Assembly: GCA_019636535.1 (NCBI GenBank) | Contig: JAHBXK010000017.1 | Span: 1 to 64,000 of the forward strand | DNA: 64,000 nucleotides | Direction: 5' to 3' | From: Phycisphaeraceae bacterium | GTDB lineage: Bacteria > Planctomycetota > Phycisphaerae > Phycisphaerales > UBA1924 | Part shown: positions 24,433-48,277 of the stretch, piece after piece | How the letters are laid out: every line of letters starts with the position of its first letter | How positions within the stretch are numbered: position 1 is the stretch's first letter | The notes under the pieces: model-generated | The model's input: only the letters and a program-made list of their open reading frames with translations | The model's database searches: none | What the model was told of the DNA's origin: nothing | Made by a program: the position numbers and the translations under genes

Positions 24433-26034
24433 TCAGATCCGCCCGCTCATCGCACGCCCCCGTACCGACTTTGCCGAAATCGTGATCTCCGCACGCTGCG
24501 CGGCACTGAGCCCGTCGAGGTTCTTGATCGCCAGACTCATCCGCGGATTGCGCCTCAACCGGTCTTCATGCCGGATGAGGAACTCCCAATACAGCGTGCT
24601 GAACGGGCAGGCGCCAGGTCCGGTCCGCTTGGTCGGGTCGTACTCGCACGATGAGCAGTAGTTGCTCATCTTCCGGATGTAAGCCCCGCCCGAGACATAC
24701 GGCTTCGTGCCCACGAGCGGAAGTCCTCCGCGTTGACTCGGCCTCGCATCCGCGTGCTGAGACATCCCGAGCACATTCGGCAGCGTCACCCAATCCACAC
24801 CATCGGCAAACATGCCAAGATACCAGTCGCTCACACGCTTGGGATGCACGCCCAGCATCAGCGCGAAGTTGCCCATCACCATCAGACGCGGTATGTGGTG
24901 GGCATACGCACGGTCCAGCACCTGCCCCACGCACTCGCGCATGCAGACCATCTCCGTCCGGCCCGTCCAGTAGACCGGCGGCAGATCGCCTCCGTGACCG
25001 AGGAAGTTCCGTTCCGCATACTCGGGACCCTCCAGGCGGTACACGCCCCGCACGAACTCTCGCCATCCGATGATCTGCCGCACGTACCCCTCGACCGACT
25101 GCAACGGCGCACCACCATCGACGTACGCAGCGACCGCCGACTCGATGCACTCGCGCGGGTCCAGCAGTTTCAGATTGAGCGCGGGCGACAGCGCCGAGTG
25201 GTACAGAAAGGGCTCATCGGTCCACATCGCGTCCTCAAACGGACCGAAGTCATGCAACCTGTGCGTCACAAAGTCCCGCAGGCACTCCAACGCCTGCGCC
25301 CGCGTCACCGGCCAGCCGAACGGTTCCATCTTGCCGGGCAGTTCCGGCAGACGGTCACGAACAGCCTTCGTCACACTCCGCGTAATCGCGTCCGGATCGA
25401 ACATCGGCACGGCTGGCGGGTTCGGTCCGCGCGCGCCAAACGACCGCCGGTTCATCTTGTCGAGGTTCCACTCCCCACCAACCGGCGTCCCATCGGGCTC
25501 CATGAGAACGTTCAGTCGCCTGCGCTGCTCGCGGTAGAAGAACTCCATCACCAGCGGCGGCTTCCGCCCGTCTGCCCAAGCAGCAAACTGTTCATCGCTG
25601 GTCAGAAAGTGTCGATCCGGCAGCAACTCGACCCGGACGCCGGCTCGGTCAGAGCATGCCCTGATCATCTTCTCGACTCGGTGTTCTCCCGGCACGACCA
25701 GCCGTATCGAATCTGGCCGAACCGCTCGGATCGCCCGCTCAATCTCGCCGCCCAATGTCTGCGTGTTCGCCGGATCGTCCAGATGCACATACCGCACACG
25801 AACCCCGCGAGATTCCAGTTCGTTCGCGAAGTGACGCATCGCCGAGAGAAAGAGCACCGTGCGCTGCGCGTGGCTCGGCACGTGGCGAGACTCCGCCGCC
25901 ACTTCCATCATCAGTACCAGATCCTGCCCGTTGTCGAAGCCGTCGAACACCGCGGAACGCTGATCCAGTTGATCACCCAGCACGACGCAGAGCCGGCGAA
26001 CCGCTACGGCGGGTTTTCTCGAGGCCCGAGCCAT
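24433..26034 (-). CDS. FeS-containing cryptochrome/photolyase-related protein (PhrB/CryPro type)
   Basis: Members of this prokaryotic (6-4) photolyase class repair UV lesions with FAD, a ribolumazine antenna and a 4Fe-4S cluster. The 533-residue product starts with the Rossmann-like antenna domain VVLGDQLDQRSAVF and ends with the FAD domain (EGYVRQIIGWREF, LPNVLGMSQHAD, YIRKMSNYC). The cluster cysteines fit: Cys460 and Cys463 in CSSC, Cys476 thirteen residues later, and Cys364 or Cys368 about 95 residues earlier. This closely matches the spacing known from Agrobacterium PhrB. The ATG at 26034 is preferred over a TTG 42 bp upstream. It lies 54 bp downstream of the GH3-family gene on the same strand and is probably cotranscribed with it. 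Confidence 0.93.
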   Translation of the reverse strand: MARASRKPAVAVRRLCVVLGDQLDQRSAVFDGFDNGQDLVLMMEVAAESRHVPSHAQRTVLFLSAMRHFANELESRGVRVRYVHLDDPANTQTLGGEIERAIRAVRPDSIRLVVPGEHRVEKMIRACSDRAGVRVELLPDRHFLTSDEQFAAWADGRKPPLVMEFFYREQRRRLNVLMEPDGTPVGGEWNLDKMNRRSFGARGPNPPAVPMFDPDAITRSVTKAVRDRLPELPGKMEPFGWPVTRAQALECLRDFVTHRLHDFGPFEDAMWTDEPFLYHSALSPALNLKLLDPRECIESAVAAYVDGGAPLQSVEGYVRQIIGWREFVRGVYRLEGPEYAERNFLGHGGDLPPVYWTGRTEMVCMRECVGQVLDRAYAHHIPRLMVMGNFALMLGVHPKRVSDWYLGMFADGVDWVTLPNVLGMSQHADARPSQRGGLPLVGTKPYVSGGAYIRKMSNYCSSCEYDPTKRTGPGACPFSTLYWEFLIRHEDRLRRNPRMSLAIKNLDGLSAAQRAEITISAKSVRGRAMSGRI

Positions 26035-26088
26035 ACCGCTCGGTTCGCCGTCGAACCCGTCTTCGATTCGGTACAAAGCAAGCCACGG

Positions 26089-39185: not shown

Positions 39186-40499
39186 TCACTCTCCTCCAAC
39201 CGCCGACCCCACACCATCGGTCGGCACGTTCGTGAGCGCCGTCCCGCCCGGCATCGATCCCACGTTGTTCAACGACGCCAGCATCGACTCGCTCACCCTG
39301 TCGCCCGGGTTCCGCTGCAGCGCCTGCGCCAGCGTCGTCCGAGCCTCTTCCAAACGGCCCGCGTCCCGAAGCATCGTCGCCTTCACGACGAACGGCAGCG
39401 TCGAGTTCCCCGATCGCTGGATCGACTGGTCGATCGTCGCCAGCGCTTCGCCCGTCTTCCCCTCCAGACCAAGGAACGACGCCCGGAACATGTACCCTTC
39501 AAACCGATTCGGCGCGAGCGCCGTGGTCCGCGCCCCCGCGAGCCGCAGGTTGCCGCGATCCTTCAGCACCATCGCCACGTTCCCGAGTTCGATCCAGGCC
39601 TGCGGGTCCGAGGCTCCCTCCGTCGTGTTCACGATCTTCTGCAGCATCGACCTCGCCTCAACCGGCCGCTGCACCGCCAGCAGGCACTTGGCCCGCAGCA
39701 TCTGCAAGTCCTTCCGATCCCGATGCTCGGTCACATTCAGCAATCGGCCGAGGTTGAACTCCGCCAGGCCGAACTCCCCGCAGGCAACCTGCGACCGCGC
39801 CAAGTCCTCCAGAATCCCGTGGTCCTCGGGCGCCAGCAGCAGCGCATCGTTGAAGTACTCCGCTGCGCGACGGTGCTGCCCGCGAAGCACCGCAATGTGC
39901 CCCAGCGTCTGCCGAACCGCCGGGCTGTACCCGAACGACTCGCGATGTTCGAGCAGCAACCGCTCCGCGTCGTCCATCCGCCCCATGCTCACCAGCATCT
40001 CCGCCGAAGCCGTCAGATACTGCGGGTTCGTCGGGTCCTTCTCCATCGCCTTCGAGTAGTACTCGAACGCCTTCTGATCCATGCTGAACCGCTCGTGCAC
40101 GATCCCGAGGAAGTAGACCGCCTCCACGTTCTCCGGCTGGAGTTCCAGCGTACGGTCGAACGCGTCCTTGGCCTCCTGCAACCGGCTCTTCTCCACCAGA
40201 ATCCGCCCGCGCAAGAGGTGAGACTTCGCCACGTTCGGGTTCAACGCGATCGAGCGGTCGATCGTCTTCAGCGCCTTGTCAAAGTCGCCGCCCAGATACT
40301 GCTGCTGGGCCATCTGCCACTCCGTCCCGCTCTTGAGTTCCGCCAGACGCTGCTGGGCGATCACCAGGCCTTCGGACGTGTACTGCCCATGTCGCTTACC
40401 ATTGCACCCGACAAGCACCCCGGCGAACAACGCCGCAGCGCCGCCGCAAACCAGAACGATCGATCGGCCATAGCCACCTGCGCAACGGTTCAGTCGCAT
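39186..40499 (-). CDS. TPR lipoprotein of the secretin/pilus cluster
   Basis: The 437-residue product has a lipoprotein signal ending at LVGC (Cys32), then about ten tetratricopeptide repeats. Examples are YLGGDFDKALKTIDRSIALNP, RLQEAKDAFDRTLELQPENV and MDQKAFEYYSKAMEKDPTN. Lipoproteins of this type (PilF/PilW-like pilotins) help secretins assemble in the outer membrane; here that is inferred from position 77 bp after the secretin gene. Two ATGs lie six bases apart; that at 40499 is preferred because GGAG is eight bases upstream of it. A bidirectional hairpin follows the stop. Confidence 0.85.
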   Translation of the reverse strand: MRLNRCAGGYGRSIVLVCGGAAALFAGVLVGCNGKRHGQYTSEGLVIAQQRLAELKSGTEWQMAQQQYLGGDFDKALKTIDRSIALNPNVAKSHLLRGRILVEKSRLQEAKDAFDRTLELQPENVEAVYFLGIVHERFSMDQKAFEYYSKAMEKDPTNPQYLTASAEMLVSMGRMDDAERLLLEHRESFGYSPAVRQTLGHIAVLRGQHRRAAEYFNDALLLAPEDHGILEDLARSQVACGEFGLAEFNLGRLLNVTEHRDRKDLQMLRAKCLLAVQRPVEARSMLQKIVNTTEGASDPQAWIELGNVAMVLKDRGNLRLAGARTTALAPNRFEGYMFRASFLGLEGKTGEALATIDQSIQRSGNSTLPFVVKATMLRDAGRLEEARTTLAQALQRNPGDRVSESMLASLNNVGSMPGGTALTNVPTDGVGSAVGGE

Positions 40500-40576
40500 G
40501 AGCATGTCTCCAAAGAAAGCGGGCGGACGCACGCCGGTGCGCCCGCCCGATGCATCGGCTGTTTCAAAGGGTCCGA

Positions 40577-43153
40577 TTACCGGTTCGGAACATCTTCCAC
40601 CGTCACGCTCGCGCTCGGACGATCCATCGGAACCGCCTCGGGCGTCGTCGTCGCCACGGGCTGCGTCGGAACCGACTGAACCGGCACATTCGCAAGCGGG
40701 CGGTCCTTCGCGTCGAAGCCCGCCGCCCACAACTCACCCGTTTCGGGGTTGAAGATCCACCCGTACTCCGTGTGAAACTTCGTGTCGGGCTTGAAGCCCA
40801 TCACGACCTTGCCCGCGTTCGGGCCACCGACGTACACGTTCGACGGAACTTTGCTCAGCAGCCCCGCGTGGAACAGCGACTGCCAACCCGCGTTGGCGCC
40901 GATGCCCAGCGCCGGCATCGAACCGTCGTTGTCCTCGACAAAGGTCGCCACCGACAGACGCAGGTTCGACAACTCGCTCTGAACCAGCTTCGGGTCGGTC
41001 TGCGGGTTGAACGACACCGTCGTCGGCTGCGCGGGCGTCTGAGCCTGGGCCGACGCCGGCCGCGAAACCTGCGTCCCGCGAACCGCCTCGACCATCTGCA
41101 CGCGCTCGCCGTTCATCTCGATCGCCTGCTCCGCGAAGCCGCCGCCGATGCGCGTCTGAAGTTCACGGCTGTTGAAGTCCATCATCGCCGCGGCGATCGG
41201 ATCAGCCGACGCCACGGCCCCAGTCTCGGGCACCGCCGGCACGAAGAAGTTCGCGCCCAGCTCGCCCGGCCGATCCACGGGGTCGCGCCCCTGGTCCTGC
41301 GAACCCCACGGCACGCGGTGACGCGGCGGCTCAGGCAGAGTCTGGATCGGCTCCAGGCGGCGATCGGTGTCGTCGCGGAAGATGTTGTTCAACCGGCTCT
41401 CGTCCGGCCAGTGCTCACGCTCGCCCGTGATCCGCTCACGCAGGCGGTACACCGCCGGCTGATGGGGATTCAGCGACAGCGAACGCTGGATCGTCCAAAG
41501 CGCCTTGTCGTGCTTGCCCTCGCGCGCCAGCCGCTCGGCCTCCACGTTCAACTGCGCCGTCATCTTCTCCCGGCTCCACGGCAGCAGACCCTGACGCGCA
41601 CCCGCGCGCACCCGGTCGATGTCCGCGTTCGCTTTCTCCGCCGCCGCAGCCACGGACTGATCCGTGATGATCGTCGGGGTGATCAGGAAGATAATCTCCG
41701 ATCGCTGCGTGTTGTCGTCGTTGCCACGGAACGCCGCGCCGATCAGCGGGATGTCGCCCAGGAACGGAACCTGCCGACGGTTGAACGTCTGCGAGTCCGT
41801 GAACAGGCCGCCCAGCACCACCGTCTGGCCGTCGCGAACGTTCACGTTCGTCACCAGTTCCTGCGTCACCTCGTCGGGGATCGTCACCGCCGCGCCGTTC
41901 GCGTCCGTGATCGTCCGGATCTCAGCCGCAGAGACCTGAGGCTTCAGTTCCATCCGGATGTTCCCGTCCACCGAGACGAACGGCCGGAAGTACAACTGCG
42001 TGCCCGTATCCAGGAACTGCACCGTCTGAGTCGTGCTCGTCTCGGTGCTCGTCGTGCTCAAGTAGCCGACGCGCTTACCAACGAGCACCCGCGCGGGCTG
42101 ACGGTTCAGCGTCAGGATCTTCGGGTTCGACAGGATCACCGTGTCCGTGATCGTGTCCAGCATCCGCAGGAAGATCGACAGGTCGCCGCCCACCACGCCC
42201 ACCTTGAAAGTGCCGGGGCCGCTCGTGTTGCCAGGCGTCGACGTGATCGCCGTGCCCTGGTTGTTCGCCGGCGACAGACCCTGGTTCGCAGCACCCGTGC
42301 CGCCGCGGATCAGGCTGTTCGCCGCAGCCAGCGGGCCGCCGATGTTGATGAAGTCCGTGAACTTCAGGTCGCCGATGATCGAGAAGTCGATGCCGAACGC
42401 GTTCGCCTCGTTCAGCGACGTCTGAAGGATCGTCGCCTCGATCAGCACCTGCGCCGGCCGCGTGTCCAACTGCGTCAGCAACTCCTCGATCGCCTTGATG
42501 TTCTCTTCGTAGTCGATCACCACCAGTGTCGCCGTCAGCGCGAAGTCGTCCTTGCCCGTCGGCGACTTCTCGGGGATCGAGAAGTTCGCCGTCTTCTCGC
42601 TTGTCTGGATCTGCCCGCCGTCGCGGCTCAGCAGCGGCTCGGCGAACGTCTTGGCGTCCGTCGCGTTCAGATAGTTCAGCCGAACCACCTTCGCCACGCG
42701 CTTCTTCAACGCCGCCTCGATCTGCTTCAACTCGTCGTTCGTGTACACATAGATGAAATTACCCTGCTCCAGGTACCCGAACCCGTTCACGTGCAGGATC
42801 GCGTCGAGCGCCTCGTAGAACGTCACGTCGTACAACGCCGCGCTCACCCGAGCCGAGACGTTCTTGCTCGCGATGATGTTCTTCTGCGTCTGCGTCGAGA
42901 GCATCTGCAGTACGTTCGCGAGGTCCTCGTCCTTCAACTGGAGAGTGACCGTGTTGTGCTCGCTCACGACAACCTGGTTCTGGCCGCCATCCCGGCTCGG
43001 ACGCATCGGGTCGCGCACGCCCGGCGCGTCACCCGCCTGGGCCAGCACGACCGATGGAAACCACAGACCAACCGCCGCCGCGGCCGCGAGCGCGGGGACC
43101 TTGCCGACCAGATCGAGCAGTTCGCGGGGGGTTCGCCGACGCTGCATGGACAT
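40577..43153 (-). CDS. Secretin (GspD/PilQ family) with C-terminal pseudopilin-like domain
   Basis: Secretins form the outer-membrane gate of type II secretion and type IV pilus machines. The 858-residue product has a signal peptide (cleavage near 38), an STN/N0-type domain (about 68-150, LKDEDLANVLQMLSTQTQ), N1-like domains and the secretin barrel to about residue 498 (VNVRDGQTVVLGGL, PFLGDIPLIGAAFR). A TPR-like helix pair follows at about 528-575. Residues about 723-820 then repeat the soluble domain of the neighbouring GspG-type pseudopilin: VYVGGPNAGKVV, and GWIFNPETGELWAAGFDAKD against GWIFDPLTGDLYASGFDVND. I know of no secretin with such a tail. GGAGAG lies five bases before the ATG at 43153. 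Confidence 0.93.
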   Translation of the reverse strand: MSMQRRRTPRELLDLVGKVPALAAAAAVGLWFPSVVLAQAGDAPGVRDPMRPSRDGGQNQVVVSEHNTVTLQLKDEDLANVLQMLSTQTQKNIIASKNVSARVSAALYDVTFYEALDAILHVNGFGYLEQGNFIYVYTNDELKQIEAALKKRVAKVVRLNYLNATDAKTFAEPLLSRDGGQIQTSEKTANFSIPEKSPTGKDDFALTATLVVIDYEENIKAIEELLTQLDTRPAQVLIEATILQTSLNEANAFGIDFSIIGDLKFTDFINIGGPLAAANSLIRGGTGAANQGLSPANNQGTAITSTPGNTSGPGTFKVGVVGGDLSIFLRMLDTITDTVILSNPKILTLNRQPARVLVGKRVGYLSTTSTETSTTQTVQFLDTGTQLYFRPFVSVDGNIRMELKPQVSAAEIRTITDANGAAVTIPDEVTQELVTNVNVRDGQTVVLGGLFTDSQTFNRRQVPFLGDIPLIGAAFRGNDDNTQRSEIIFLITPTIITDQSVAAAAEKANADIDRVRAGARQGLLPWSREKMTAQLNVEAERLAREGKHDKALWTIQRSLSLNPHQPAVYRLRERITGEREHWPDESRLNNIFRDDTDRRLEPIQTLPEPPRHRVPWGSQDQGRDPVDRPGELGANFFVPAVPETGAVASADPIAAAMMDFNSRELQTRIGGGFAEQAIEMNGERVQMVEAVRGTQVSRPASAQAQTPAQPTTVSFNPQTDPKLVQSELSNLRLSVATFVEDNDGSMPALGIGANAGWQSLFHAGLLSKVPSNVYVGGPNAGKVVMGFKPDTKFHTEYGWIFNPETGELWAAGFDAKDRPLANVPVQSVPTQPVATTTPEAVPMDRPSASVTVEDVPNR

Positions 43154-43520: not shown

Positions 43521-43781
43521 TCACCGCGCTCGCAGCGACTCGGCCGACTCCGAGGGAGTCCCTACCACTTGCAGCGCAGGCTCGGGGCTCGGCTCCGCGA
43601 TCGCCGTGCGAGGGTGGCTCGTCACCAGCATCAGCCTCGCCCAGATCAACAGGCCCAGCGCGAGCACGCAGAACCCGAAGCCCGTCACGCGGAGATGCCC
43701 GGACAACCGCTGGCGCAACTCGACGCCACGGGAAGTCGGCTCGGCGAGATCATCTTGTTCGGGCCTTGCTGTGCGTGCCAT
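43521..43781 (-). CDS. Small single-span membrane protein in the pilus cluster
   Basis: The 86-residue frame has a charged N-terminus, one membrane helix (about 32-53, TGFGFCVLALGLLIWARLML) and a Pro/Ser-rich tail. It lies in order between the GspH-type gene and the secretin gene on the same strand. Size and topology resemble small accessory proteins of type II secretion systems, but I recognise no family. Without a ribosome site and with GC-driven composition, it may not be a gene. Confidence 0.45.
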   Translation of the reverse strand: MARTARPEQDDLAEPTSRGVELRQRLSGHLRVTGFGFCVLALGLLIWARLMLVTSHPRTAIAEPSPEPALQVVGTPSESAESLRAR

Positions 43782-43843
43782 GCGACAAGTGTGCAACCGA
43801 ATCCCCGCTCACGCAAGGTCCGAGAGCATCAGGCACAATCCGC

Positions 43844-44461
43844 TCATCCGCCCGTAACGTCTGTGACAATCGGATCGCCGGAATCACCCCCCGAACCGGC
43901 GGGATCTTCGCCCTGCGATCGCACCACGCGGACCCGCCCCGTGAAGGCGTCCACCTGGATCCGGAACGTCTGCTGCATCCCGATGATCGTCACCGTACCG
44001 CCGGCGCTCGCCGCGTTCGAGCCCGCGTCCACCACCGGACCGCCCAGCGCATCGAACATCAGCACGTTGTCGCCGTCGAAGCCGGCCTGCGTCATCCGCG
44101 AGTCACCGAAGCGCGCGTCGCTCAGATTCACCTCGTACCGCCCGGACCGCTTCGTCGGGTCGTACAGCACGTTGTTCTGCACGTCGATCACGTTGCCCGG
44201 CACCGCCACCAGCGTGTACCGGTTGTTCGCCACGTCGAACACCATCGCCCGGCGCTCCTGGAACGCCACCGCGTCGCTCTGGATGAACGTGATGTCGCTC
44301 ACCACCATCCGCACCGCGCCCTGCACGCGCAGAATCCCAGTCTCACCCATCGCCGGAATGATCATCGCGCCGGCCAGGCCCAGCACCACGATCACGCACA
44401 GCAACTCCAGCAGCGTGAAGCCGCTACGGACGCGAACGGTCGACTTCTGACTGCGGAACAT
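43844..44461 (-). CDS. GspH-like pseudopilin
   Basis: The 205-residue product begins MFRSQKSTVRVRSGFTLLEL, a prepilin leader with Gly before the processing site and Phe+1/Glu+5, then a hydrophobic helix (about 15-35). The C-terminal domain has the beta-rich look of GspH/FimT minor pseudopilins (FIQSDAVAFQERRAMVFDVANNR). It should be processed by a prepilin peptidase, which is not in the window. GGGAG seven bases upstream supports the ATG at 44461. It lies in the middle of the secretin/pilin cluster. Confidence 0.88.
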   Translation of the reverse strand: MFRSQKSTVRVRSGFTLLELLCVIVVLGLAGAMIIPAMGETGILRVQGAVRMVVSDITFIQSDAVAFQERRAMVFDVANNRYTLVAVPGNVIDVQNNVLYDPTKRSGRYEVNLSDARFGDSRMTQAGFDGDNVLMFDALGGPVVDAGSNAASAGGTVTIIGMQQTFRIQVDAFTGRVRVVRSQGEDPAGSGGDSGDPIVTDVTGG

Positions 44462-44535
44462 CGGCTCGCTCCCGGAACGCAAGGGCGGCCCCTCGCCTGC
44501 ACGCCATGTCGGCGCGCCCACGCCTCGCACAACAC

Positions 44536-44871
44536 TCAGTTCGGCGGCTGCTGCGGGGGCAGCGTGATCGGAGGCATCTCCTTCACGCGAACCTCGAGCG
44601 GCTGATTCAACCTCGACTCGAGCCGTGCAAGACGCTGGTTCATGTCGCGCATTTGCTCGATCATCAGCCTGCGCTGCTCACCCGCGTTGAAGGGCGTCGT
44701 CGTCAGCGGCTCGCCGCGAGGCTCGTTGCGCGGCTGCGCACCGACGCTCGACGATGACGAACTCAGGCCCGCGTGACCGACCGCAAGCACCACCGCGCCG
44801 AGCGCGGCGAACGGAATCAGGCGGTCGATCATCCGGCGGGTGTGTCCGCCGCTCACTCGCGAAAGACTCAT
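44536..44871 (-). CDS. Small membrane protein with coiled coil in the pilus cluster
   Basis: The 111-residue product has a single membrane helix (about 16-36), a Ser run, and a short amphipathic coil (about 64-90, EQRRLMIEQMRDMNQRLARL), ending with a Pro/Gln tail. GGAG six bases upstream supports the ATG at 44871. It lies between GspG-type and GspH-type genes on the same strand. I recognise no family; a bitopic scaffold role in the same machine is inferred. Confidence 0.72.
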   Translation of the reverse strand: MSLSRVSGGHTRRMIDRLIPFAALGAVVLAVGHAGLSSSSSSVGAQPRNEPRGEPLTTTPFNAGEQRRLMIEQMRDMNQRLARLESRLNQPLEVRVKEMPPITLPPQQPPN

Positions 44872-44967
44872 GGGATGCTCCGGGGTTTGCCTCCGAGGGC
44901 TCCTCATGTCTTCGGCCCGATCGCGGCACGACTGCGGCACGCGTCCGGAATAACCGTCCCGCGGACC

Positions 44968-45411
44968 TCAGGGCTTCGGGATCGGGCGGTCGTTGACATC
45001 GAAACCGGACGCGTACAGATCGCCCGTCAGCGGATCGAAGATCCACCCCTGTTCGTCCGTCCACGAACCGTCGGGCTCGTACCCCTCGATCAGCACCACG
45101 CGACGCGAGTTCGGACCGCCCACCCACGCATTGATCGGCGCCGACAGCAGGTAGTCCCCGCTCAGGCCCACGAGCGGCCCCCACGCCTCCGCGGGATCGT
45201 CCGAATCCGTGATCGGCGGGATCAGGCCGTTGTTCCTCGTCTGCCACACTCCGATCGCCTTCCTCATCTTCTGAAGGTCGGTGTACGTCGCGTTCGCGGC
45301 GGCCTCCTGCGTAGCGCTGCTGAACTGCGGGATCACTAGCGCCGCCAGAATCCCGAGAATCACCACCACGATCAGAATCTCGACCAGCGTGAATGCGCGA
45401 CGAACTTTCAT
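44968..45411 (-). CDS. GspG-type major pseudopilin (copy 2)
   Basis: The 147-residue product has a six-residue prepilin leader and a classical helix RAFTLVEILIVVVILGILAA. A globular domain follows with VGGPNSRRVVL and the end motif GWIFDPLTGDLYASGFDVND. This domain is shared with the C-terminus of the secretin in the same cluster. GGAGAG stands before the ATG at 45411. It follows the first GspG-type gene after a strong 12-bp hairpin. Confidence 0.92.
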   Translation of the reverse strand: MKVRRAFTLVEILIVVVILGILAALVIPQFSSATQEAAANATYTDLQKMRKAIGVWQTRNNGLIPPITDSDDPAEAWGPLVGLSGDYLLSAPINAWVGGPNSRRVVLIEGYEPDGSWTDEQGWIFDPLTGDLYASGFDVNDRPIPKP

Positions 45412-45560: not shown

Positions 45561-46058
45561 TTACTGGTTCGTGACCCAGGTGCCAGCGTCTTCATCGAAC
45601 CCGGCGGCGGCGATCTCACCGCTCGTCGAGTTGTAGAACCAACCCGGGCCGTCCGGATCGGCGGCGGCGGCCGCCGCGTCCGTACGCGGATTCGCCGATT
45701 CGGCGACCTCGTTGCGGCCGTTGCGCGGATTCACAGGACGATTCCGCGTGTACGGCTGCTGCGCCCGGCCGAGGCTGTTGTCGTCGCCCAGACCGAACGT
45801 GTTGCCCGTGCCGGCCAGCAGATCGTCGAACGAACCGTCCTGGTCGCCCGCGATCGCCGGAACGTCCCCGTTGTTGCGGACGCGGAACAGCTCGATCTGG
45901 TTCCGAAGCGTCTGCAACTGGGTCTGAATGTTGCCCGTCTGCGCTTCCTGGCTGGCGTTCGTGAACTGCGGGATCACGATCGCGGCCAGAATGCCCAGGA
46001 TCACAACCACGATCAGAATTTCAACCAGCGTAAAGGCCTTCGACACTCGAGTACGCAT
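45561..46058 (-). CDS. GspG-type major pseudopilin (copy 1)
   Basis: The 165-residue product begins with a short prepilin leader and the helix KAFTLVEILIVVVILGILAA. Its globular domain ends DGPGWFYNSTSGEIAAAGFD, again the GW(F/I) motif. It has an Ala/Asp insertion (about 118-130) and Gly/Asn-rich loops not seen in copy 2. AAGGAG eight bases upstream confirms the ATG at 46058. It is the first gene of the cluster and is followed by a hairpin, suggesting that it is the most abundant pilin. Confidence 0.92.
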   Translation of the reverse strand: MRTRVSKAFTLVEILIVVVILGILAAIVIPQFTNASQEAQTGNIQTQLQTLRNQIELFRVRNNGDVPAIAGDQDGSFDDLLAGTGNTFGLGDDNSLGRAQQPYTRNRPVNPRNGRNEVAESANPRTDAAAAAADPDGPGWFYNSTSGEIAAAGFDEDAGTWVTNQ

Positions 46059-46379
46059 GCAGGAGTCTCCTTTCACACACCGTCCAACACCCGGCGGGAC
46101 ACACTCCGACGGGCCGTGACACGCTTGCCTGGACCACCTGGTCGGGGGTGTTCCACGTGGAACACCCCGGAACTGGTGGCGAGCGAATCGGTCATCGGAT
46201 GTCGGTTGCGCGTGTTTGCGTCCACAGGGGGATTGACTTTTGACTTCCGCGTTCGCGGCGGATCGATCGGATCAAGGTGCACAGATTCGCGCGGTTACGG
46301 GGCGAACGGCGTGTTATCCGGGCGGGGCGTACGGTTCGCGGCCTGATTCGGCGGGGGGATTGAGACGGAGCCAAGTGAG
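46059..46379. other. Divergent intergenic region with parS
   Basis: The 321 bp between the pilin cluster and the tRNA-binding protein gene hold the parS palindrome (46145-46168). I see no gene here and no clear housekeeping promoter, although both divergent promoters should lie here. Confidence 0.6.
46145..46168. promoter_or_regulatory. parS: parS-like centromere site
   Basis: A perfect 24-bp palindrome has as its 16-bp core (46149-46164) TGTTCCACGTGGAACA. This matches the ParB-binding consensus TGTTNCACGTGNAACA exactly. I see no second copy in the window and no parA/parB. In other bacteria such sites lie mostly near the replication origin. Confidence 0.88.
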
Positions 46380-46825: not shown

Positions 46826-48277
46826 CTACAACGATTGAAAGACCTTCATAACGCGGTCGCGCGCCTTGGCGTGGTCGGCGATCGGCTCGGGGTAGTCGAT
46901 CGTGCCGCGAAGGAGGGCGGGGAGGTCGCTCGGGTCGTGGATGGGGCCTTTCTCACCGCCGTCGAGGTCGGCGAGTTCGGGGACGTAGGTGCGGATGTAC
47001 GCGCCGTCGGGATCGAATCTGCGGGACTGGGAGACGGGGTTGAAGATGCGGAAGTAAGGCGCGGCGTCGGTGCCGGTGGAGGCAGACCACTGCCAGCCGC
47101 CGTTGTTCGAGGCGAGGTCTCCGTCGATGAGGTGGCGCATGAAGTGCCGCTCGCCCCAGCGCCAGTCGATGAAGAGGTCCTTGGTGAGGTACATGGCGGT
47201 GATCATGCGGACGCGGTTGTGCATCCAGCCGGTTTGGAGCAACTGCCTCATGCCAGCGTCGACGATGGGAACGCCGGTGCGGCCCACCGTCCATGCCTCG
47301 AACGCGCGCTGGTCGTTGTTCCAGAGGATGCGTTCGGTGTCGGGCTTGAAGGCGCGGTGCATGCAGACGCGCGGGAAGCCGACGAGGATGTGCTTGTAGA
47401 AGTCGCGCCAGACGAGTTCGCTGATCCAGTGATTCGGCCCCTCATGGCCGGCCTTCTTGCTTTCGAGGAGGTCGCCGTTGGCTTCTACCGCCGGGGCGAG
47501 GCACTGCCTGGGGGAGATCGCGCCGACGGCGAGGTAGGGTGAGAGTGTGCTGGTGGCCTCGAGGGCCGGGAAATCGCGGCGGTCCTTGTAGCGAGTGATT
47601 GACTTGGCGATGAAAGCGTCGAGGCGCTTCGAGGCCGCACGCTCGCCGGCGGGCCAGAGGTCGTCGGGCACGTCGGTCTCGAACCCAGAGACCGTGTCGG
47701 GGACTGGGTCGGAACGGACACCGGTTTGCGGCTGCTTGCGCGGACGCTGGAGGACCGCGGCGGAACCGGATGGGAAGCCGTCTTCGAGGAGCGCCTTGTA
47801 GTACGCACGCTTGAAGGGCGAGAAGACGGTGTAGTACCTGCCCTCGGCGGTGGAGACGGAGCCGGGCGGGAGGAGCACCTGATCGTGGTAGCGATGGAAG
47901 GTGACGGCGCCGCTGGCAAGGCGTGCCTGCACGGCGTCGTCGCGCCGGCGCTCGTTGATCTCGTACTCGGCGTTGGTGTGGACGCTGGTGCAGTTGACTT
48001 CGCGGCAGAGGCGTGCGACGGCTTCGGGTGCATCGGCGAAGCGATCGGCGCGGACGATGCGAAGGGGGATGTTCAGGGCGGCGAGATCGGCGGAGAGTTC
48101 GCGCAGCGTTCGGAGGATGAAGCGGATCTTGACACCAGCCCAGTCGTGCTCGCGCCACTGGGTGGGGGTGATGAGGAACGCGGCGATGACGCCGTCGTCG
48201 GAGGCTTTACAGGCCGCACGCAGGGCCTTGTTGTCGGCGGTTCGGAGGTCGGAACGGAACCACATGAGTGCGGGCAT
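46826..48277 (-). CDS. phrB: Deoxyribodipyrimidine photolyase (class I CPD)
   Basis: The enzyme reverses cyclobutane pyrimidine dimers using blue light. The 483-residue product has the N-terminal antenna domain (WFRSDLRTADNKAL) and a helical FAD domain with WRDFYKHILVGFPRVC, TGVPIVDAGMRQL, TGWMHNRVRMI, and NNGGWQWSASTGTDAAPYFRIFNP. These match the class I (E. coli type) photolyase signature closely. A second ATG four codons on is possible. It is independent of the FeS-type protein at 24-26 kb. Confidence 0.96.
   Translation of the reverse strand: MPALMWFRSDLRTADNKALRAACKASDDGVIAAFLITPTQWREHDWAGVKIRFILRTLRELSADLAALNIPLRIVRADRFADAPEAVARLCREVNCTSVHTNAEYEINERRRDDAVQARLASGAVTFHRYHDQVLLPPGSVSTAEGRYYTVFSPFKRAYYKALLEDGFPSGSAAVLQRPRKQPQTGVRSDPVPDTVSGFETDVPDDLWPAGERAASKRLDAFIAKSITRYKDRRDFPALEATSTLSPYLAVGAISPRQCLAPAVEANGDLLESKKAGHEGPNHWISELVWRDFYKHILVGFPRVCMHRAFKPDTERILWNNDQRAFEAWTVGRTGVPIVDAGMRQLLQTGWMHNRVRMITAMYLTKDLFIDWRWGERHFMRHLIDGDLASNNGGWQWSASTGTDAAPYFRIFNPVSQSRRFDPDGAYIRTYVPELADLDGGEKGPIHDPSDLPALLRGTIDYPEPIADHAKARDRVMKVFQSL

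Follow-up and report, generated by a model that had tools for sequence, protein, structure and literature searches.

The secretin gene at 40577-43153 of the window (the whole stretch of 64,000 nucleotides from a Phycisphaeraceae bacterium that was analysed) encodes an 858-amino-acid protein of the PilQ/GspD superfamily whose residues 723-821 are, by sequence comparison and structure modelling, a type IV pilin head minus its membrane helix. The gene is on the minus strand, as are all other features of the window located below, and its reading frame, strand and coordinates agree with the original prediction. The pore domain (residues 334-496, 41666-42154) places the protein among the secretins, with a score of 143.5 bits against PF00263 in Pfam (E=6e-42, cut-off 27.5). 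Against the subfamily models TIGR02515 (PilQ) and TIGR02517 (GspD) it scored 230 bits, under the cut-off of 284, and 221 bits, under the cut-off of 351, respectively. Residues 72-133 (42755-42940) form an N0 domain, matched by PF21305 at E=2.3e-5, just under the cut-off. The pore domain is followed by a post-barrel region (residues 497-580, 41414-41665) that is a candidate S-domain and contains one TPR-like hairpin at residues 541-572 (PF13371, E=6.6e-4, below the cut-off); this stretch is kept in the relatives examined, with dN/dS of 0.08-0.23. A low-complexity linker of about 142 residues (581-722, 40988-41413), for which no match to Pfam families was found, leads to the pilin head (40691-40987).

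The head differs from type IV pilins in being part of a secretin and in lacking the N-terminal membrane helix and the prepilin cleavage site. The N-terminal methylation motif, Glu5 and the hydrophobic helix are absent from the secretin, the N_methyl motif occurring only in the separate pilins, so that the protein does not qualify as a functional (assembling) type IV pilin. The original prediction held that secretins normally end in a short S-domain. That does not describe the present family, in which the tail is long (median 316 amino acids past the secretin core), hypervariable and mostly of low complexity. We read the general plan of these tails as the pore domain, a helical or TPR-like conserved stretch, a variable linker with or without grafted domains, and a terminal peptide.

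The closest pilin relative of the head in the genome is pilin B, a protein of 147 amino acids encoded in the same cluster (44968-45411), with an N_methyl motif (E=5e-7). Secretin residues 726-820 and pilin B residues 44-144 are 36% identical over 101 columns. BLASTP of the head against pilin B gave 69.3 bits (E=1e-18), in line with the earlier observation that residues 723-820 or so align with the soluble domain of this pilin, and a search of the whole genome with the secretin tail found pilin B at E=3e-14. The paired motifs on which that observation was based are all present (EDNDGSMP/TRNNGLIP, YVGGPN/WVGGPN and GWIFNPETGELWAAGFDAKDRPL/GWIFDPLTGDLYASGFDVNDRPI), and the count of 15 identical positions out of 23 in the GWIF-type motif is exact. 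The description of pilin B as GspG-type holds for its N-terminal part alone, the gspG model giving 46.9 bits, below its cut-off of 88.85.

We built profiles from the pilin heads of relatives alone (54 of pilin A and 55 of pilin B, with no secretin among them). The original prediction was to be given up if the tail had no significant profile match to pilin domains or was predicted to take an unrelated fold. The pilin-B profile matched the tail with 87.0 bits (E=4.3e-26). Among shuffled or reversed control tails the top score was 10.2 bits, a second control set, in a repeat with 107 tails, stayed at or below 12.0 bits, and the tails of headless relatives gave no score with this profile. A chance or low-complexity similarity of the head to pilins is ruled out by the shuffled and reversed controls.

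AlphaFold2, given residues 712-826 and 28 homologous heads, predicted a pilin-type fold and not an unrelated one (pLDDT 90.5, pTM 0.83), with a long helix (H10-30), a short helix (H47-51) and three strands; PilA1 of C. difficile and GspG-like pilins likewise have one long helix and a three-stranded sheet. Full-length pilin B, modelled as a control, has the same order of elements after its membrane helix (pLDDT 89.4). In a VIA-align comparison of the head model with the PDB, the matches shown at Z of at least 2 were type IV pilin entries only; the best of them, with C. difficile PilA1 (6t8s), had the weak score of Z 4.4 over 81 residues, at 3.7 Å. Because these matches were weak, though confined to pilins, the pilin B model was compared in the same way, and it behaved alike, finding type IV pilins only (best Z 5.3) and 6t8s at Z 4.8 over 85 residues. 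As judged from the two models, the weak structure scores of the head are similar to those of a genuine pilin of the same group. Foldseek alone gave no match to the head model at E <0.001. A sequence-profile search of solved structures with the head gave none below E=0.1, the best being 3g20, a type II secretion protein, at E=0.13.

Secretins of the present kind were found in 156 of the 163 genomes of the same Phycisphaerales family, in all 74 genera. A pilin head on the secretin tail occurs in 12 of the 163 genomes, belonging to 8 genera, so the fusion that the original prediction proposed to look for in related genomes is present in other genera; 104 of the 116 secretins examined do not have one. 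In nine genomes (G000, G006, G016, G030, G114, G115, G182, G183 and G184) a B-type head is in a long open frame with the secretin. In two other genera the heads are of the pilin-A type: G036 has one such head, scoring 46 bits against profile A and 25 against profile B, and the tail of G028 (L242) ends in two in tandem, 44% identical to each other. The named matches were uncultured Phycisphaerales and Phycisphaeraceae MAGs. With the B-type profile, which would miss A-type or other heads, no fused frame was found outside the family, whether in the order (400 genomes) or in the phylum (392).

A tenth genome, G001, has a B-type head broken by a frame change. It is the only other genome of the genus, and the change lies inside the head near 9968-10240 of L129 (L129/L075). 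The assembly is fragmented, in 620 contigs, and the frame change may be either an error in the sequence or a genuine loss. This broken frame could be taken to favour a chance similarity, or two genes fused only by faulty assembly, but the probability of either is vanishingly small and the reading is already refuted by independent assemblies and control tails, since eight other genomes, in different assemblies, have a B-type head and the secretin in one open frame and the control tails reach at most 12 bits compared with 87.

The nine B-type secretin heads, which come from six genera, formed one group (SH-aLRT 89) in a tree of 119 heads. The group stood beside all 52 typical pilin-B heads (97), and the head of G036 fell within pilin A. 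The present head is up to 59% identical to the heads of other secretins, compared with 36% to its own pilin B. Since the secretin heads form one group beside pilin B, they are probably old and not copies of the adjoining pilin. The head tree gives no support to recent copying from the adjacent pilin or to concerted evolution with it. A tree of the secretin core contained the B-head secretins in one supported group that also included headless members, with G036 and G028 elsewhere. We favour separate gains of the heads, for which the core trees and the profile-score preference speak; an AU test on the heads alone does not reject a single origin (p=0.47). One early gain followed by many losses is possible.

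The head is under purifying selection, and the linker around it drifts. In two close pairs of relatives, the head had dN/dS values of 0.135 and 0.187. Those of the preceding linker were 0.562 and 0.313, and those of the pore region 0.04-0.05. In the head clade 20 positions are invariant over nine rows, which represent six genera, and residues of the pilin-B core and turns are retained in the head (Trp757, Pro770, Asn772, Gly798-Trp799 and Asp814). Two basic residues of the helix that are conserved in pilin B, Lys at 730 and Arg at 741, are gone from the head clade, a loss that would fit a pilin head that has ceased to be packed into filaments. A head kept by selection is likely to have a job, and it probably does one, such as gripping the pilus or the pilus assembly machinery.

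The secretin gene is part of a cluster with the conserved order pilin A, pilin B, 134-amino-acid protein, GspH-like pilin, 91-amino-acid membrane protein, secretin and TPR lipoprotein. In nearly all the family members examined, pilin A (45561-46076) stands in tandem with pilin B. The 134-amino-acid protein (44536-44940) has one hydrophobic segment and no significant family match in Pfam; its position is conserved in relatives, as is that of the 91-amino-acid single-span membrane protein (43521-43796). The GspH-like minor pilin (43844-44530), likewise conserved in the cluster, has an N_methyl motif and scored 25 bits with the gspH model, below the cut-off. Directly downstream of the secretin, at 39186-40505, is a TPR lipoprotein with the lipobox LVGC, its start placed at the methionine before the signal peptide. 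It matches TPR families, and with the PilW model it scored 65 bits, below the cut-off. With a lipoprotein signal, TPR repeats and a gene beside that of the secretin, it has the features of a TPR pilotin (PilF/PilW/TadD-like) and is a candidate for that role. A TPR lipoprotein gene follows the secretin gene in those relatives whose locus extends that far. In G030, G183 and G184, the head-bearing secretin and the TPR gene are on a different contig from the pilins (L067/L078, L072/L081 and L069/L080). Two genes of the window, at 24433-26076 and 46826-48277, resemble photolyase-family genes by eye; one of them adjoins the pilin cluster.

PilB, PilT and PilC are encoded elsewhere in the genome, on contig C71. 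The PilT family match scored 438 bits (cut-off 319) and that for PilM 149 bits (cut-off 133), and the presence of a PilT-type retraction ATPase together with PilM marks a type IV pilus as opposed to type II secretion. The PilM is of the Akkermansia Amuc_1101 type and is followed by two large proteins of 447 and 740 amino acids (L252:2720-8430, contig C4). These two proteins had no family match and are candidates for the alignment complex. A search for the alignment lipoprotein PilP gave no match in this genome and none in the control genomes either. We infer that the machine is a type IV pilus of the Planctomycetes-Verrucomicrobia kind and that the loci on other contigs belong with the secretin, in a genome that also has other secretins and ATPases.

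Pilin heads and N0 domains are contact surfaces of the pilus machine. The N0 domain of Thermus PilQ has been reported to contact itself, and a PilMNOPQ network to touch PilA (PMC3724824). Residues 412-416 of RcpA bind the TPR lipoprotein TadD (PMC10499894), and OutD has an unstructured end that folds on its pilotin, OutS (PMC3276575). Given that secretin C-termini are bound by pilotins in this way and that a TPR lipoprotein gene is located just downstream, the tail is likely to be periplasmic. The original prediction suggested that the head could cap the filament. This is unlikely, given that the C-termini of secretins engage pilotins in the periplasm (PMC10499894, PMC3276575) and that the head is without the filament helix.

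We tentatively read the head as a periplasmic docking module on a flexible tether that engages the filament or pilin-binding parts of the machine, a reading to which we would give a little less than an even chance. The tail would be periplasmic and lie alongside the channel, kept close to the outer membrane by the pore domain and, probably, the TPR lipoprotein as well. Since the helix that holds a pilin in the filament is missing, the head would be unable to join the filament in the normal way; a ring of heads would instead mimic a pilin surface and bind the usual partners of pilin heads, which may be filament subunits or minor pilins on their way into the channel, or else the alignment complex of the inner membrane. 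On its linker of about 142 residues a head could reach the filament, the vestibule or that complex, and binding may help to recruit, align or hold the filament machinery under the gate. Docking draws on the homology, the shared fold, the occurrence in 8 genera, selection on the head, the recurrent grafts described below, the changed helix surface and the periplasmic topology expected from pilotin binding. The fact that most relatives have no pilin head (104 of 116) counts against it and indicates that the head is not essential to the machine. Docking is favoured over the four other roles weighed below, namely plugging of the gate, ballast, a decoy and surface display.

The heads could also serve as a plug, folding back into the periplasmic vestibule or beneath it and blocking the channel until an emerging filament pushes them aside. 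With about a dozen of them per ring, the heads could fill the vestibule, and the linker would be long enough. This is nevertheless unlikely, since most relatives have no head, known secretins have gates of their own, and in solved secretins the chain exits the barrel on the outer side of the channel. It is likewise improbable that the head is structural ballast, a spare domain that needs only to fold. The tails are indeed hypervariable and mostly of low complexity, and purifying selection could reflect fold stability alone, but the grafts that could be identified copy components of this machine, and the head clade retains its 20 invariant positions. A decoy or buffer, competing with real pilins for pilin-binding proteins and so tuning the amount of filament, is a distinctly doubtful role. 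The pilin-like surface is kept at the core motifs and, with no N-terminal helix, the head has no ability to polymerize; however, its tether localizes it to the gate, and a free decoy would not need one. That the tail is on the cell surface, with the head as an adhesin or DNA-binding patch, is highly improbable. Pilins of other systems do bind DNA or surfaces (PMC6561018), but the C-termini of known secretins bind lipoprotein pilotins in the periplasm (PMC10499894, PMC3276575), and in relatives too the TPR lipoprotein gene follows the secretin.

Pilin heads are not the only domains grafted onto these tails. A second copy of the secretin's own N0 occurs in the tail in three lineages, namely in one genus with six such genomes (G023, G116-G120), in G009 and in G016, with scores of 51-76 bits compared with 6-8 bits for the best control. 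The tail of G016 has an N0 copy and a pilin head together. The tail N0 copies were recorded at L026, L031 and L010, and at L204 and L210-L213. It is possible, if on balance doubtful, that the tail is a graft site that has repeatedly been given the machine's own interaction domains (two types of pilin head, and N0) and that serves as the gate's handle for the filament or the alignment complex.

The extreme C-terminus of the secretin, SVTVEDVPNR (40580-40609), is a variant of a T-x-V-P-(T/E/D)-like motif that occurs in the family with or without grafted domains. A T-x-V-P-like end motif was found in 36 of 112 tails, compared with at most 16 in 300 shuffles. The motif is a possible pilotin-binding peptide, maybe for the TPR lipoprotein.

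The closest known secretin system resembles the present one in having N0, Secretin_N and pore domains, an operon with pilins, and a TPR lipoprotein as candidate pilotin, and differs in that the present secretin has a long post-pore tail ending in a pilin head. In the RcpA-TadD pair of Tad pili, a TPR lipoprotein binds the unstructured C-terminus of the secretin, and a TPR lipoprotein is encoded here as well, the two being likened by their TPR repeats alone; the C-terminus of RcpA, however, is a short peptide with no folded domain (PMC10499894). A precedent for the reuse of machine domains is the Caulobacter Tad protein CpaI (PMC13170226), a bridging component in the periplasm whose fold resembles a secretin's own N-terminal domain; it is a separate protein, whereas here the copies are on the secretin tail. 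In the open-access literature searched, which gives weak evidence of absence, we found no secretin with a pilin domain, in keeping with the statement in the original prediction that none was known. The parts are therefore known, and their combination on a secretin tail has, as far as we have found, not been described.

It has long been asked how a secretin in the outer membrane locates its filament, lines up with it and opens for it, and contacts between secretin and filament have been hard to catch. A secretin with a pilin head that selection maintains, an arrangement apparently arrived at again with other parts of the same machine, points to a contact surface open to testing with isolated domains. 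It would also mean that secretin tails can carry folded functional modules, whereas they are usually viewed only as pilotin-binding peptides.
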